Below, piece after piece: positions 2,166 through 30,512 of a stretch of DNA of 30,783 nucleotides; the stretch's first letter is position 1, and the number at the start of each line of letters is the position of its first letter. This DNA is from a virus. The stretch lies in the IMG/VR virus record IMGVR_UViG_3300044640_000819, positions 1-30,783 of that record; one strand, 5' to 3'. Below the pieces are notes generated by a model, which saw nothing but the letters and a program-made list of their open reading frames with translations, was not told the DNA's origin and ran no database searches. The position numbers and the translations under genes were made by a program.

Positions 2166-3449
2166 ATGCAAATCCCGGCCAAACTGGTGCCGGTGTTCAT
2201 TGGCCCAGCAGACGTTCGGGGGGCATACGGCGGACGGGGTTCTGCGAAGTCGCGGACGTTTGCTAAGATGACCGCTGCCCGCGCCGTGATGTGGGCTAGG
2301 GCAGGCGAAAGCGGGATTATCCTGTGCGGTCGCCAGTTTATGAACTCGCTGGCCGACTCCTCAATGGAGGAGGTCAAACACGCCATCAACGAAGAGCCTT
2401 GGCTGAAGCCGCACTTTGAGATCGGCGAAAAATACATCCGGACGACCTGCGGGCGCATCGACTACGCCTTCACCGGGCTGGATCGGAACATCGACTCCGT
2501 GAAGTCGAAGAGCCGCATTCGGATTGCATGGATTGATGAGGCCGAGCCAGACACCGAAGAAGGTTGGACCAAGCTGGACCCGACGCTTCGGGAGGAGGAT
2601 TCTGAACTCTGGGTGACATGGAACCCGGAGGGCAAGAACAGCGCAACGCATCGGCGCTTTCGAATGAGCCAAGACCCTCTGGTCAAGGTCATCGAGATGA
2701 ACTGGCGGGACAATCCTTGGTTCCCGGACATTCTGAACCGGAAGCGGTTGAGGGACATGGCAGAGCGCCCGGATCAGTATGACCACATCTGGGAAGGCGG
2801 CTTCAAAGAGATCACAGACGGAGCCTACTTCGCCAGCGCGCTGACGCAGGCCAAGGCGGAGGGCAGGATCGGGAACGTGGCGGCCGACCCGCTTATGACG
2901 TTCCGCGCGTTCTGGGATATCGGCGGGACGGGAGCCAAGGCTGACGCCTGCAGCATCTGGATTGCCCAGTTTATCGGGCGCGAGGTTCGGGTGCTGGACT
3001 ACTACGAGGCGCAGGGCCAGCCGCTGGCCACGCATGTGAATTGGCTGAGGGCCAACGGATACGGTTCGGCCTTGTGTGTGCTTCCCCATGACGGCGCGCA
3101 GTCGGACAAGGTGTTTAGCGTCAGCTACGAAAGCGCTCTGCGGGATGCGGGGTTCTCGGTTGAGGTTGTTCCGAACCAAGGCCGGGGAGCGGCTGCGGAG
3201 CGGATTGAGGCGGTTCGGCGGCTCATGCCTTCGGTCTGGTTCAGCGCTGAGAAGACGGCGCACGGTCGGGACGCTCTTGGCCACTACCACGAGAAGCGGG
3301 ACGAGAAGCGCGGGATCGGGCTGGGGCCAGAGCATGACTGGTCATCGCACGGCGCGGACGCCTTCGGGTTGATGGCTGTATCGTATCAAGCGCCAGTGGT
3401 GGCGAAACGGCCAAGGCCGGTGGCAGCAGCGGGAGGCTGGATGGGATGA
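2166..3449 (+). CDS. terL: Terminase large subunit (ATPase-nuclease), 427 aa
   Basis: This is the motor that pumps DNA into the procapsid and cuts it. The Walker A motif is GGRGSAKSRT (residues 22-31, K28) and Walker B is RIRIAWIDEAE (117-127, D124 and E125). The coupling motif WVTWNP is at 149-154, followed by NWRDNPWF (179-186), typical of the PBSX-like terminase group. The C-terminal RNase H-like nuclease shows FWDIGG (D251), PHDG in the middle, and HGADAFG (D398) near the end. The length is normal for the family. ATG 2166 follows the small subunit by seven bases, and the stop overlaps the portal start as ATGA. All key residues are present, so it should be functional. Confidence 0.95.
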   Translation: MQIPAKLVPVFIGPADVRGAYGGRGSAKSRTFAKMTAARAVMWARAGESGIILCGRQFMNSLADSSMEEVKHAINEEPWLKPHFEIGEKYIRTTCGRIDYAFTGLDRNIDSVKSKSRIRIAWIDEAEPDTEEGWTKLDPTLREEDSELWVTWNPEGKNSATHRRFRMSQDPLVKVIEMNWRDNPWFPDILNRKRLRDMAERPDQYDHIWEGGFKEITDGAYFASALTQAKAEGRIGNVAADPLMTFRAFWDIGGTGAKADACSIWIAQFIGREVRVLDYYEAQGQPLATHVNWLRANGYGSALCVLPHDGAQSDKVFSVSYESALRDAGFSVEVVPNQGRGAAAERIEAVRRLMPSVWFSAEKTAHGRDALGHYHEKRDEKRGIGLGPEHDWSSHGADAFGLMAVSYQAPVVAKRPRPVAAAGGWMG

Positions 3450-25843: not shown

Positions 25844-26019
25844 CCCATCACGCCCTTGGCCCAGATGAAATACAGCGGCGGCCCAAGCCAGAAGGCCAGC
25901 CACAAGGCAGCGGCCATCTTCTCGTGAAGTCTAAGGGTGTAGTCCCATACCTCATAAAACCTCCATGCGCTGGCCACGCCGATGAGCGTCATCAAGATCA
26001 GGGCGCTAATTTGACTCAC
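25840..26019 (-). CDS. Small two-span membrane protein, 59 aa
   Basis: A GTG at 26017-26019 with AAGGAG eight bases upstream is the start. It overlaps the upstream gene's stop (GTGA), and its stop overlaps the next gene as ATGA. The product has two hydrophobic segments (SALILMTLIGVASAWRFYEV and AAALWLAFWLGPPLYFIWAK), with a charged RLHEK loop between. The family is not recognised. Confidence 0.6.
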   Translation of the reverse strand: MSQISALILMTLIGVASAWRFYEVWDYTLRLHEKMAAALWLAFWLGPPLYFIWAKGVMG

Positions 26020-26195
26020 GACGTCGGCTCCTTCCTCGTCAGATTCGGCCAGCAATAGGCCCGCTCCTTCACGTCCGTCCGTGGCCGGGTGGGCTCCATC
26101 CAGTCGGTGAACGGGCGGCTGGGGTGGCGAGGCGTCAAGAAGTGCGAGGCGAAGCGGACGGGCAGGTCTGAGGCGGTGGGGCGTCGGAAGTTCAT
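26016..26195 (-). CDS. Small hypothetical protein, 59 aa
   Basis: ATG 26195 follows the junction cassette GGAGGGTGACCA. The product starts MNFRRPTASDLPVRFASHFL and continues with PFTDWMEPTRP and KERAYCWPNLTRKEPTS. It is basic, proline-rich and soluble. The frame is confirmed by ATGA and GTGA overlaps at both ends. No family is recognised. Confidence 0.6.
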   Translation of the reverse strand: MNFRRPTASDLPVRFASHFLTPRHPSRPFTDWMEPTRPRTDVKERAYCWPNLTRKEPTS

Positions 26196-26217
26196 TGGTC
26201 ACCCTCCTTTGCGATGG
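26192..26217 (-). repeat. Junction cassette copy 1
   Basis: On the minus strand CCATCGCAAAGGAGGGTGA then CCAATGA. It carries the ribosome-binding site and start of the 26016-26195 gene and the last codons of the 20-codon gene. It matches copy 2 (26692-26721) in the part before the start. Confidence 0.75.
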
Positions 26218-26254
26218 TGGCGGGGTCGATGGGGGTGAAGGGTTGGGGGGTCAT
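26192..26254 (-). CDS. 20-codon cistron, possible relic of a duplicated gene
   Basis: An ATG at 26252-26254 overlaps the upstream stop (ATGA), and its own TGA overlaps the next ATG (26195). It encodes MTPQPFTPIDPATIAKEGDQ. The end, DPATIAKEGDQ, matches the end of the 76-residue gene at 26696-26926 (DPETIAKEADQ). It is either a working leader that couples translation or a leftover tail of a deleted paralogue. It is too short for a fold. Confidence 0.5.
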   Translation of the reverse strand: MTPQPFTPIDPATIAKEGDQ

Positions 26255-26481
26255 GTGCCGCTCCCGAGAAAGCGAAGGATGGCGGCAATACCGACAACGG
26301 GCAGGCAGGTGAATACCAAGACGAGGGCCACGTATCTGACAGCGTTCGATGTCTGGCGCAGCCGCCAGTAAGCGGCGGTGATCCGCACGAGATCGAAGAC
26401 AGCAACCACCCACACACCGAAAAGGCCCAGAACCGCGCCCCAAAGTGCGACGGCAAGCAGAATGCCAGCAGACAAGCTCAT
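26251..26481 (-). CDS. Two-span membrane protein, 76 aa
   Basis: ATG 26481 follows AAGGAG (minus strand) and overlaps the upstream stop as ATGA. The product has a first span (ILLAVALWGAVLGLFGVWVV), a polar DLVRITAAYWRLRQ loop, and a second span (VALVLVFTCLPVVGIAAILR). The third small membrane protein of this cluster, it may act in the cell membrane with the two downstream. No family is recognised. Confidence 0.6.
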   Translation of the reverse strand: MSLSAGILLAVALWGAVLGLFGVWVVAVFDLVRITAAYWRLRQTSNAVRYVALVLVFTCLPVVGIAAILRFLGSGT

Positions 26482-26699
26482 TGATGGGGCTCCTTTGCGG
26501 CCATGTAGGTAGCAAGAGCGTAGTCCCGCGCCCGCTGCTCGGCGTTTGGCCCGGAAAATATGGCGCGGTAAATCTCGCCCTCTGACCCGTAGTCGATAGC
26601 CTCCACCAACCAACGGTCGGGGTCGTGCCTTAGCGGTACGACCTCGACTTCCAAGCCGGGAGGCTCATTGTCGTTTATGGGGCAGGCTGACTCACTCAC
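26478..26699 (-). CDS. Hypothetical protein, 73 aa
   Basis: The start is a GTG at 26699 within junction cassette copy 2. It gives MSESACPINDNEPPGLEVEV, RHDPDRWLVEAIDYGSEG and RARDYALATYMAAKEPHQ. It is soluble, acidic in front and helical at the end. The GTGA overlap with the upstream stop and the ATGA overlap downstream fix the frame. No family is recognised. Confidence 0.6.
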   Translation of the reverse strand: MSESACPINDNEPPGLEVEVVPLRHDPDRWLVEAIDYGSEGEIYRAIFSGPNAEQRARDYALATYMAAKEPHQ

Positions 26700-26721
26700 T
26701 GGTCAGCCTCCTTTGCGATGG
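26692..26721 (-). repeat. Junction cassette copy 2
   Basis: Minus-strand CCATCGCAAAGGAGG, then CTGACCAGTGAGTGA. It combines the upstream part of copy 1 with the downstream part (AGGAGGCTGACCAGTGAGTG) of copies 3 and 4, a chimera between the two cassette types. Confidence 0.8.
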
Positions 26722-26926
26722 TCTCGGGGTCTAGGCGTCGGACATTGACATACCGGCGATTTGCCCAAGCATAATCAGCCTCCCTCGCAGCAGCCTCCAG
26801 CCCTAGCCGGATGCCCTCTAGCCGGGCGGCGTCGATCAGGTGTTGGTTGATGATGGGGCTGTTGTGCAGCGCGATTTGCTTCCGCAAAGCATCCTCCAGC
26901 GCCTTGATGCGGTCATCGTCACTCAC
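26696..26926 (-). CDS. Hypothetical helical protein, 76 aa
   Basis: The start is a GTG at 26926. The product has MSDDDRIKALEDALRKQIAL, a coiled-coil-like N-terminus, then HLIDAARLEGIRLGLEAAAR and the tail NVRRLDPETIAKEADQ. It shares RIKALE with the 166-residue protein upstream (17 identical bases at 26892-26908 and 27449-27465), and its tail with the 20-codon cistron. It has no catalytic motif. Small helical phage proteins of this kind are common in early operons. The role is unknown. Confidence 0.6.
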   Translation of the reverse strand: MSDDDRIKALEDALRKQIALHNSPIINQHLIDAARLEGIRLGLEAAAREADYAWANRRYVNVRRLDPETIAKEADQ

Positions 26927-26946
26927 TGGTCAGCCTCCTTGAGCAG
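26919..26946 (-). repeat. Junction cassette copy 3
   Basis: 28 bases identical to copy 4 (27141-27168); the minus strand reads CTGCTCAAGGAGG, CTGACCAGTGAGTGA. Here the upstream gene runs through the cassette in another frame and stops at TGA inside GGCTGACC. Confidence 0.85.
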
Positions 26947-27148
26947 GGCGGCGCGAAGGATCACGTGGCGGGATCGGGCCTATCACTTCGAGAGCAAGCC
27001 GAAGATCGGAAATGAACCCAGGCTCCGCTAAGTCCTGCTCTATCGTTGTTTCTGCGTTGGCGATGCGCTGCATCCGCAATATCGCCGCCGCAGTGGCGTC
27101 CCACGGGCGACGGCAGTGCGGGCAGCAGAATGGCTTAATCTCACTCAC
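26930..27148 (-). CDS. Small cysteine-motif protein, 72 aa
   Basis: The GTG at 27148 lies in junction cassette copy 4. The product starts MSEIKPFCCPHCRRPWDATA. The C-C-P-H-C cluster (residues 8-12) could be half of a zinc knuckle, but a second cysteine pair is absent. The rest is helical (ILRMQRIANAETTIEQDL), and the end is basic and proline-rich. The last residues are read from cassette copy 3 in another frame, suggesting that the 3' end was replaced. Family unrecognised. Confidence 0.55.
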   Translation of the reverse strand: MSEIKPFCCPHCRRPWDATAAAILRMQRIANAETTIEQDLAEPGFISDLRLALEVIGPIPPRDPSRRPAQGG

Positions 27149-27168
27149 TGGTCAGCCTCCTTGAGCAG
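27141..27168 (-). repeat. Junction cassette copy 4
   Basis: 28 bases identical to copy 3. The minus strand encodes the last residues (ALLKEADQ) of the 166-residue gene, the ribosome-binding site AGGAGG and the GTG of the next gene. Confidence 0.85.
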
Positions 27169-27645
27169 AGCCTCGGCTTCGGCTTCCGTGGCGCACTCCG
27201 TCACTTCGAACAGAAAGCCGTCGTCGCGGGCCTCGCGCTCGGCTTCCGAAAGGAAGCGGACGGCGGCGTAGATGGGCGCGCAGTCCCGGAGCGTGTCTAT
27301 GCGGAGAACCTGCGTGCCGTTCGGGAGGTAATCTTCCGGGTCAAGTTCATCCACCATGGCCTGAACGGCGTCCTGCACGGAGTCGAAGGGCGATCCTTCG
27401 TCGTCGGCATAATAGAACCACCGGGGCTTGTTTGCCTTCTCCAACTCCTCCTCCAGCGCCTTGATCCTCTCTGCGGATGCGGCCTGTCCGGCGCGGTAGG
27501 CGCGGACGGGATCGTCAAGGTTCACGTCCATCAACCCGGCGCGATATTCTGCGGGAAAATCCACGCCGGGCATCGGGCCATATTTCTCGCACTGTTGGGC
27601 CGCGTCCTCCCTCGCCCACAGCAGGGCCTCGTCGGGTTCAGTCAT
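27145..27645 (-). CDS. Hypothetical protein, 166 aa
   Basis: ATG 27645 overlaps the upstream stop (ATGA). The order is an acidic N-terminal part (MTEPDEALLWAREDAAQQCE), a coiled-coil AERIKALEEELEKANK (about residues 58-73), then a region with WFYYADDEGSPFDSVQDAV and YLPNGTQVLRID, and a C-terminal part with FLFEVTECATEAEAEALL. It is soluble, with no recognised domain. Comparable proteins in early operons of GC-rich-host phages are mostly uncharacterised. The C-terminal codons are the cassette shared with neighbours. Confidence 0.6.
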   Translation of the reverse strand: MTEPDEALLWAREDAAQQCEKYGPMPGVDFPAEYRAGLMDVNLDDPVRAYRAGQAASAERIKALEEELEKANKPRWFYYADDEGSPFDSVQDAVQAMVDELDPEDYLPNGTQVLRIDTLRDCAPIYAAVRFLSEAEREARDDGFLFEVTECATEAEAEALLKEADQ

Positions 27646-27908
27646 TGTGCGGCCTCCTCGGCATTGGTTTTGACACTTTCGCCCCCGGCCATGCCCTCAG
27701 CACCGCTCGGGCGAAAGGAGCGAGCTTCCTCCAGCGTCATCTCGGCCAGCACAAACCCGGCCTCCATGTCCTGCACGATGTTGGCCACGCGGTCGGTGTG
27801 GTCCAGCTCCCCGGCGCGGATGGGGCGGGTGAGGAGGTTGGCCTGCGACGGCGAAAGGCGCTGGATGGCGCGTTCGCGGGCGAGGCGTTGGATGGTGTCG
27901 TGGGTCAT
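27642..27908 (-). CDS. Hypothetical protein, 88 aa
   Basis: ATG 27908 is chosen over longer starts because it overlaps the upstream stop as ATGA. The product reads MTHDTIQRLARERAIQRLSP, then IRAGELDHTDRVANIVQDME and FVLAEMTLEEARSFRP. It is soluble and helical, without known motifs. A small accessory role in early phage metabolism is the most that can be said. Confidence 0.6.
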   Translation of the reverse strand: MTHDTIQRLARERAIQRLSPSQANLLTRPIRAGELDHTDRVANIVQDMEAGFVLAEMTLEEARSFRPSGAEGMAGGESVKTNAEEAAQ

Positions 27909-29204: not shown

Positions 29205-29461
29205 TCCACTTCCTCCCCATCGTCCAGCCTCATGCGCGCATCCCACCCATCCGGCGTGATTTGCACCATATCGCCGTCACGATCCTGGATGATTCGGACA
29301 TAGCCCTTCTCCTCCAGATGCCGCAGGGTCCGGTGGCCGGTGTGCCAACCTGTCCGCGTGTCTGACTTGGCGAGAATCCTCCGGGCCTCATGGCCGGCAA
29401 GATCACCGTCTGACAGCGCGTCGAGAAGGCGGTGCGCGCGACCGTTGACGCTGTAGGTCAT
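29201..29461 (-). CDS. Winged-helix-like DNA-binding protein, 86 aa
   Basis: The order of helices (AHRLLDALSDGDLAGHEARR, then TGHRTLRHLEEKGYVRII) followed by a hairpin (DRDGDMVQITPDGW) matches a winged helix-turn-helix (L-x-x-L-x-x-x-G-Y-V). It may regulate phage early genes. ATG 29461 overlaps the NinB stop by one base (TAATG). It lacks a recognised effector domain. Confidence 0.65.
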   Translation of the reverse strand: MTYSVNGRAHRLLDALSDGDLAGHEARRILAKSDTRTGWHTGHRTLRHLEEKGYVRIIQDRDGDMVQITPDGWDARMRLDDGEEVE

Positions 29462-29853
29462 TAGGCAGCCTCCTCGCCGCCGAACGTCACACCCTCGCGG
29501 GCTCCAAACGCTTCGATCAGCGCCATCAGGTCGGACATTTCATCCACCGACAGGGCCGATGATGAGCGGCCAAGCTGGACAAAGCCGTTGCCGTCGAGGT
29601 TCGGCACCATGCGCAATTCAGCCTTCAGCGCGGACAGAAACACCACCTTCCAGTCGTCTGGAGAGAGCTTCTGCCCGTGCCATTTCACCTGCCGGGCCAC
29701 ATCGGTAAGCATTGCCCACATGCGTTCGTTTTGAGGCAGGGTCCGCTTGGGGCCAGCGAACGTGACGCGGGTTCCCCACGCAGCCTGATCGATCCACGCG
29801 CGGGCGCGGGCCTTCTCGATCTGGGAGTGAAGGACGATAACGGCGCGGGACAT
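29461..29853 (-). CDS. ninB: NinB-like recombination protein, 130 aa
   Basis: The pattern TLPQNERMWAMLTDVARQV (residues 38-56) followed by KWHGQKLSPDDWKVVF is typical of NinB/Orf-family recombination mediators, which bind single-stranded DNA and help load a recombinase. The length is right. It lies next to the ERF annealing protein, which fits. The start overlaps the ERF stop as TAATG. Confidence 0.85.
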   Translation of the reverse strand: MSRAVIVLHSQIEKARARAWIDQAAWGTRVTFAGPKRTLPQNERMWAMLTDVARQVKWHGQKLSPDDWKVVFLSALKAELRMVPNLDGNGFVQLGRSSSALSVDEMSDLMALIEAFGAREGVTFGGEEAA

Positions 29854-30512
29854 TAGTCACCCGCCTCGTCGTCGAAAAGCTCCTGACGCCGCAGCTCCAG
29901 CTTGTCGCGGTAGGGGTCGAGCCATGACAGCGGCTGATCCGCCGTAAGGTCGTCGAAGTTGGCGAGCCAGTCGGCCAGGCCTTCCTTGGAAAGCCGGTTG
30001 ATCTCGCCAATGATCCGCTCGTGATCCCCGTCGCGTTTGGCTTGGGCTGACGACTTGCGGCCCCCGCTGGGCATTTCAGGCGGAGCGACGGGGGCGGGAC
30101 GCTGGGCGCGAGGCGCAGCCGCCGTCGCGGCGTTGCCGTCATCATCCTCCGGCGCAACCCCGACGAAAGCGGCGAGGGCATATCGCCGAGCGTAGGTGGT
30201 CGCGGACCCGTAAGCCTGGGCATCCACCTTGGCCAGCGGGATCGTCAGCGTCCCGCGCATCCACTCCCCGGAAGCATGGGCCAGCATGGTCGTCATTTCC
30301 ATCCGCCCATCGGCGCAGGGACCGGGGGACTGGACGACCGCGAGGCCGTGCTTGGTGAGGGCTTCCCGGCAGGCATCCCACACGGCGGCGAGGTCGGCGT
30401 ATTTGGAGCGGAAGGCGGGGTTTGCCTTGCCCTTTACAGCGCCTTCAACCTCGCCCTGTGCGGCTGACAGAGCCTTGGCGAGCGAGGCGATGGTGGGGGA
30501 GGTGTCAAACAT
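29853..30512 (-). CDS. erf: ERF-family single-strand annealing protein, 219 aa
   Basis: Residues 31-44 (NPAFRSKYADLAAV) and 101-127 (YGSATTYARRYALAAFVGV, APEDDDGN) are the conserved N-terminal motifs of P22 Erf-type recombinases. The alanine/proline linker (about 128-150) and a charged C-terminal domain follow. It should anneal single strands and support recombination or genome circularisation. ATG 30512 lies eight bases inside the end of the upstream gene. Confidence 0.9.
   Translation of the reverse strand: MFDTSPTIASLAKALSAAQGEVEGAVKGKANPAFRSKYADLAAVWDACREALTKHGLAVVQSPGPCADGRMEMTTMLAHASGEWMRGTLTIPLAKVDAQAYGSATTYARRYALAAFVGVAPEDDDGNAATAAAPRAQRPAPVAPPEMPSGGRKSSAQAKRDGDHERIIGEINRLSKEGLADWLANFDDLTADQPLSWLDPYRDKLELRRQELFDDEAGD

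Follow-up and report, generated by a model that had tools for sequence, protein, structure and literature searches.

The question raised by this locus is why one short sequence, spanning the end of one gene, a ribosome site and the start of the next, should recur at several junctions within a string of small phage genes, and whether such junctions are places where genes are exchanged. The stretch of DNA analysed (the window) is a viral contig of 30,783 bases from a P22-like phage (podovirus), with P22-type portal, scaffold and coat genes on the plus strand (PHROG matches phrog_156, phrog_3927 and phrog_283). On the minus strand the order is Erf, NinB, a DNA methyltransferase and an HNH protein, followed by a string of small genes down to approximately 25.7 kb; Erf and NinB adjoin the array of cassettes considered here. 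No close relative of the window was found in the isolate collection, the best isolate match to its portal being 46 % identical. The portal (2166-3449) is 81 % identical to that of contig G001 (L100), but the terminase large subunits of the two are only about 35 % identical, which makes this a mosaic joint inside the packaging genes. The features of the array and its surroundings are as follows.

29853-30512, minus strand: gene for an Erf-type single-strand annealing protein (phrog_155, E 1.6e-40).
29461-29853, minus strand: gene for a NinB/Orf recombination mediator (phrog_72, E 2.6e-31).
27642-27908, minus strand: conserved flank gene, 88 aa, MTHDTIQRLARERAIQ..., which precedes the array in G001, G013, G018, G022 and G024 and is also found in G012 and G021.
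27642-27659, minus strand: junction of a second type, GAGGAGGCCGCACAATGA, with the tail EEAAQ-stop; it holds the start of array gene 27145-27645 and begins the array.
27145-27645, minus strand: array gene 1, 166 aa; its head is common to G018 and its tail block ATEAEAEALLKEADQ to many genes.
27141-27168, minus strand: cassette copy 1, TGCTCAAGGAGGCTGACCAGTGAGTGA, comprising the tail ...EALLKEADQ-stop of gene 27145-27645, the Shine-Dalgarno sequence AAGGAGG and the GTG start of gene 26930-27148.
26930-27148, minus strand: array gene 2, an ORF of 72 aa containing CPHC.
26919-26946, minus strand: cassette copy 2, identical to copy 1 over 28 bases; the gene that enters it, 26930-27148, is out of the KEADQ frame.
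26696-26926, minus strand: array gene 3, 76 aa; its first ~165 nt from the Shine-Dalgarno sequence on show 2 mismatches against G004 and G016, where the neighbours are others.
26692-26721, minus strand: cassette copy 3, with the tail DPETIAKEADQ-stop of gene 26696-26926 and the GTG start of gene 26478-26699.
26478-26699, minus strand: array gene 4, an ORF of 73 aa.
26478-26495, minus strand: degenerate junction, AAGGAGCCCCATCAATGA (14/18), between genes 26478-26699 and 26251-26481.
26251-26481, minus strand: array gene 5, 76 aa, membrane-like; its relative in G012 comes after a junction of the second type.
26192-26254, minus strand: ORF of 20 codons, MTPQPFTPIDPATIAKEGDQ, each end of which overlaps the adjoining gene by ATGA.
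26192-26217, minus strand: cassette copy 4, the variant AAGGAGGGTGACCAATGA, with the tail DPATIAKEGDQ-stop of the 20-codon ORF and the ATG start of gene 26016-26195.
26016-26195, minus strand: terminal array gene, 59 aa, MNFRRPTASDLPVRF..., which has no cassette at its 3' end.

Read on the coding (minus) strand, the cassette is AAGGAGGCTGACCA-RTGA, often with GTGA next, and consists of the tail of one gene, the Shine-Dalgarno sequence AAGGAGG and the RTG start of the following gene; the window holds three exact 22-mers and one variant. Stop and start overlap by four bases (RTGA) in three of the copies, where the tails read KEADQ-stop or KEGDQ-stop. When up to 3 mismatches are allowed, AAGGAGGCTGACCAGTGAGTGA has exactly three matches in the window and none in 100 dinucleotide shuffles, while AGGAGGNTGACCARTGA has four exact matches, all on the minus strand, against an expectation of 0.35 even at 3 mismatches. 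Motif counts show that the cassette differs from the general ribosome site of the window. Sequence comparison bore out the structure described in the initial annotation: the copies at 26919-26946 and 27141-27168 agree in all 28 bases, and the copy at 26692-26721 has 22 of these 28 bases in 26692-26713 and continues in 26714-26721 as does the copy at 26192-26217. Its statement that each copy holds a gene end, an AGGAGG site and the next start stands for all copies, except that the 'gene' ending at 26192-26217 is merely the 20-codon ORF. This ORF is probably a gene tail left over from recombination, since its DPATIAKE tail is a block common to many array genes. The second junction type at 27642-27659 was absent from the initial list.

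Most of the array proteins tested gave no Pfam or PHROG match at the usual thresholds, and neither of two that were searched in sequenced isolates was found there. Since a search with the protein of gene 27145-27645 gave no relatives (no tblastn-confirmed locus in viral contigs and none in isolates), relatives were collected by the DNA of the cassette, through exact scans of IMG/VR followed by mismatch searches inside the records found, a procedure that inflates the apparent uniformity of the cassette. Approximately 33 contigs besides the window were found to carry cassette arrays, usually of several copies lying close together and mostly on one strand; two of them (L050 and L054) are binned with bacterial genomes. 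The 18-mer also occurs in 36 stretches of GTDB bacterial genomes, nearly all of them lone gene starts, without an array, in unrelated bacteria, the exceptions being L050 and L054, and a scan of 397 genomes from the order of the L050 bin matched that bin only. A single match in Gordonia phage Murp, at one stop/start junction without repeats, was taken as chance or convergence. Several features of individual carriers were recorded. The 64.6-kb contig G012 (L109, L110) has two arrays with different genes, at ~4-5 kb (plus strand) and ~56-58 kb (minus strand). Array genes in G015 and G002 (L114, L101; 358 aa) and also in G022, G023 and G025 appear by eye to encode pentapeptide-like repeats (ANLRGADL...). 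In G006, G012 (L104, L110) and G027 (L264) the large subunits of the terminase, 857 and 946 aa long, seem by eye, from their translations, to contain intein-like inserts. The MNFRRPTASDL, MNPSWLILHI and MSKDWLFYHI families, of which window gene 26016-26195 is an example, usually close arrays and lack a cassette at the 3' end; the arrays therefore have polarity.

The carriers are not a single group of phages. The portal of the window was found in 6 of the 31 other carriers searched, and its Erf in the same six, in two cases partly. The terminases of the carriers fall into at least five clearly different types, most pairs of which are no more than 45 % identical. Because the portals differ and there are at least five terminase types, the array genes constitute a pool common to structurally unrelated phages, and different small genes sit on either side of the cassette across these groups, which is why we regard it as marking where phages trade small genes. 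Judged from these sequences, exchange appears to cross unrelated phage lineages, which goes beyond what had been claimed from the window. Two candidates for a recombinase common to all carriers were rejected: Erf was found in the P22-like carriers only, and RecT was above cut-off in no carrier.

To describe the neighbours of the cassette, 92 nt of flanking sequence on either side of 121 usable junctions were grouped at a threshold of 72 % identity, with the cassette itself left out. This gave 68 clusters on the upstream side and 68 on the downstream side, paired in 98 combinations; more than one partner was found for 20 of the upstream clusters and for 15 of the downstream ones, and 22 of the 98 junction types recurred in at least two contigs. 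Of the non-redundant swapped pairs, 8 that share the upstream side and 4 that share the downstream side involve window junctions. Gene 26696-26926 illustrates the pattern when set beside G004: the two are unrelated before the cassette, and nearly identical for ~165 nt from AAGGAGG; a variable middle part leads to a 40-nt tail and the cassette, in which they are once more identical (CCTAGACCCCGAGACCATCGCA plus cassette, 26696-26735), and beyond this they are unrelated, a different gene coming next in G004. Likewise, genes other than 26930-27148 follow the upstream tail of copy 1 in relatives, the gene downstream of copy 4 is placed after other genes in G007, G011, G012 and G024, and the gene upstream of the second-type junction at 27642-27659 is common to G001, G018, G022 and G013, where mostly other genes come next. 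A gene of 56 aa (SDDERIKALELM...GFLAGEADQ) has four different genes before it and three after it in different places. Among P22-like carriers whose portals are about 80 % identical, the arrays behind the flank gene of the 27642-27908 family differ in both the number and the kind of their genes. The proposal that the copies are exchange points would have been contradicted by a single conserved gene order in relatives; what was seen is the same upstream gene with different downstream genes, and vice versa. With partners that vary, homology that breaks inside the 18-bp cassette and arrays that differ between phages of ~80 % portal identity, the exchange-point reading is supported, and recombination is the probable agent.

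Homology switches inside the 18 bp in 79 non-redundant swapped pairs. In the 38 upstream-shared pairs mean identity has fallen to ~0.25 by position +8 past the start, and in the 41 pairs that share the downstream side it climbs at the Shine-Dalgarno sequence. Because the flanks in this paired profile had been chosen around cassettes, an independent all-against-all analysis of homology-block ends was carried out, in which an end counted as being at a cassette if it lay from -35 to +12 of the cassette start, and shifted cassettes (1000 shuffles) served as the control. Left ends lay at cassettes in 162 of 660 cases against a shuffled 35 +/- 10, and right ends in 118 of 667 against 36 +/- 10, values reached in 0 of 1000 shuffles on either side and amounting to an enrichment of about 3- to 5-fold. 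Comparison of the contigs places exchange joints at the cassette. The proportion of blocks that end at a site, rather than spanning it, was 0.89 for cassettes, 0.67 for other called gene starts and 0.22 for gene middles, indicating that in these arrays any gene border can be a joint and that cassettes are so to a greater degree (cassettes over other starts, Fisher p 6e-11 on ends, the contigs being non-independent). Among high-identity block ends, 44 of 53 lay away from cassettes; since other gene starts also break often, the cassette is best described as a favoured joint, one among several. The best single case is the comparison of G012 with G024, which have no mismatches over ~4.1 kb to the right of the start and 23 % identity to the left of the cassette. 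The stretch shared at this joint is merely ~9-15 bp, which is short for homologous recombination.

That the DNA was copied, and not the protein end, had been argued from a copy read in a different frame by the gene that enters it. Such readings were found at two independent junctions; in the window, gene 26930-27148 ends QGG-stop, 3 nt ahead of the next start, in the copy at 26919-26946. The codon usage of the tail points the same way: alanine in the EADQ tail is encoded by GCT in 58 of 60 tails, compared with 16 % in these genes overall. The contigs were collected with GCT in the search pattern, and the further copies within each contig are free of that selection. The argument is thus supported on both grounds. 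Reading frames are intact across the joints.

The clearest case of gene gain or loss involves L050 and L054, which have common flanks between which L050 has one gene and L054 three. The single gene of L050 is chimeric, combining L054 genes 1 and 3, which are joined in a repeated coding stretch, TACCGCGCCGGTCAGGCCGCATCCGC. The comparison captures a natural gain or loss of genes between repeats, with the crossover in a coding segment outside the cassette. Since the chimera was joined in one, repeated segments within genes also act as joints. Among such internal segments a count of sequence contexts gives RIKALEE, NQHLIDAARLEGIRL, HDGGPQPVAD and DPATIAKE; the 37-bp core of the cassette leads by far, with 53 copies in 22 contigs in 42 left and 46 right contexts. 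Within the window, the RIKALEE coding repeat at 26879-26908 and 27436-27465 is 83 % identical over 30 nt and is one of several internal homology nodes.

Our working hypothesis, to which we assign a probability of roughly 0.7, is that the copies serve as standard connections between modules within an operon of small genes, at which co-infecting phages exchange, gain and lose genes, most likely by recombination at short homologies. Wherever in the cassette a joint fell, the upstream gene would still end at a stop and the downstream gene would still have a ribosome site and a start; nearly any pair of genes could therefore be joined undamaged and would remain coupled in translation. Phages that infect the same cell, even if structurally unrelated, would then swap, gain or lose small genes at these junctions, with the 18-45 bp of common sequence most likely serving as the short homology, acted on by Erf-type annealing in the lineage of the window and by other or host enzymes elsewhere; ease of exchange may itself keep the sequence uniform. 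Phage Rad52-like proteins, Erf included, do recombine regions with short stretches of homology (PMC3945230). It is conceivable, and we put it forward only tentatively, that the cassette is a plug-in junction (tail, ribosome site and stop/start) kept across unrelated lineages by selection for exchangeability and not as incidental homology, a common connector for the pool of small genes.

The main rival to exchange at shared junction sequence is that the cassette is a translation element, selected as an efficient coupled ribosome site in the manner of the start-associated sequences (SAS) of cluster K mycobacteriophages, and that recombination is illegitimate, with only joints at gene borders surviving. 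A Shine-Dalgarno sequence with an overlapping RTGA is what coupling requires, other array gene starts break too (0.67, against 0.22 for gene middles), and the G012/G024 joint has very little common sequence. We nevertheless consider this account unlikely: selection for initiation leaves unexplained why the CTGACCA spacer is uniform, why CTGCTC or CATCGCA recurs upstream, why GTGA follows the start and why GCT is near-invariant; the window's general ribosome site is a different one; and breaks occur more often at cassettes than at other starts, with the reservation on independence given above. Tandem duplication, in which the repeats would be the conserved ends of diverged duplicates within one genome, could draw on the heads or internal segments that some array genes share (RIKALEE, YRAGQAASAE) and on two similar genes in L054. 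It was rejected, and we think it highly improbable, because close relatives of the genes between copies sit in other phages beside other genes; moreover, the genes between the window copies are mostly unrelated, and four window genes do not align over their length.

That one short sequence turns up at so many joints, almost always in the same orientation, would also be expected of an attachment site for a dedicated, integron-like recombinase. This too seems very doubtful, given that breakpoints occur outside the cassette as well, that no long inverted arms were seen when the cassette was read by eye, that terminal genes lack the cassette and that two junction types occur together. On non-systematic inspection, no recombinase gene common to the carriers was noticed. 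As every sequence is a metagenome contig, it might be supposed that short-read assemblers had fused unrelated phages at the repeat. Such chimeras are scarcely credible as an explanation, with 22 of 98 junction types present in at least two contigs and frames intact across the joints; a repeat of 18-28 bp is, in addition, shorter than most assembly words, which counts against them.

A search of the open-access literature gave no prior description of the cassette system, a weak indication that none exists, and the idea of boundary sequences is itself old. It has long been asked whether phage mosaicism arises by homologous recombination at boundary sequences or by illegitimate recombination filtered by selection. 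Boundary sequences or linkers have been proposed as sites of homologous recombination between the modules of lambdoid phages (Clark et al., 2001, for HK620; Susskind and Botstein, 1978, for P22; both as cited in PMC3029335), yet they cannot be found at most mosaic borders (PMC3029335), and the question has been held open because they are so rarely found at joints. Here cassettes lie at joints in dozens of copies, with breakpoints mapped to the base pair and with recent events, so that the question becomes directly testable, and the fixed 18-mer offers a simple handle for retrieving the shared small-gene phage pool from metagenomes. Like the lambdoid boundaries, the cassette is a short common sequence at a border with unrelated modules on either side, and joints are enriched at it over other places; unlike them, one cassette serves many junctions per genome and is spread over at least five terminase types, it reaches into the coding sequence at gene ends and starts, and its joints are mapped at base-pair level. 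In the mycobacteriophages Island3 and Brujita, the C-terminal 18 residues and ~50 bp of DNA are common to the neighbouring genes 67 and 68, and recombination between them explains the gain or loss of one gene (PMC3029335); that case is one event seen in two phages, whereas the cassette is present in many copies and lineages and its repeat includes the ribosome site and start. The SAS of cluster K mycobacteriophages (PMC3203893), 13 bp of GGGATAGGAGCCC lying mostly upstream of ATG and proposed to act in translation, has inverted repeats at about half of its sites. It resembles the cassette as a short asymmetric repeat with a Shine-Dalgarno core, in many copies and one orientation, before the starts of unrelated small non-structural genes. 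The two differ in that in cluster K the SAS consensus GGGATAGGAGCCC precedes the start by 3-7 bp, whereas the cassette is AAGGAGGCTGACCARTGA in P22-like and other contigs, includes the end of the previous gene and the stop/start overlap, and has shuffled neighbours. The relaxed recombination of Rad52-like proteins (PMC3945230) provides a mechanism that can join short homologies, and Erf, which the window has, was tested there; it differs in using longer diverged homologies and no dedicated repeated junction. The cassette system, which was not found in sequenced isolates, combines features of the lambdoid linkers, the Island3/Brujita repeat and the SAS, and is an unusually clear case of such a sequence in multiple lineages.
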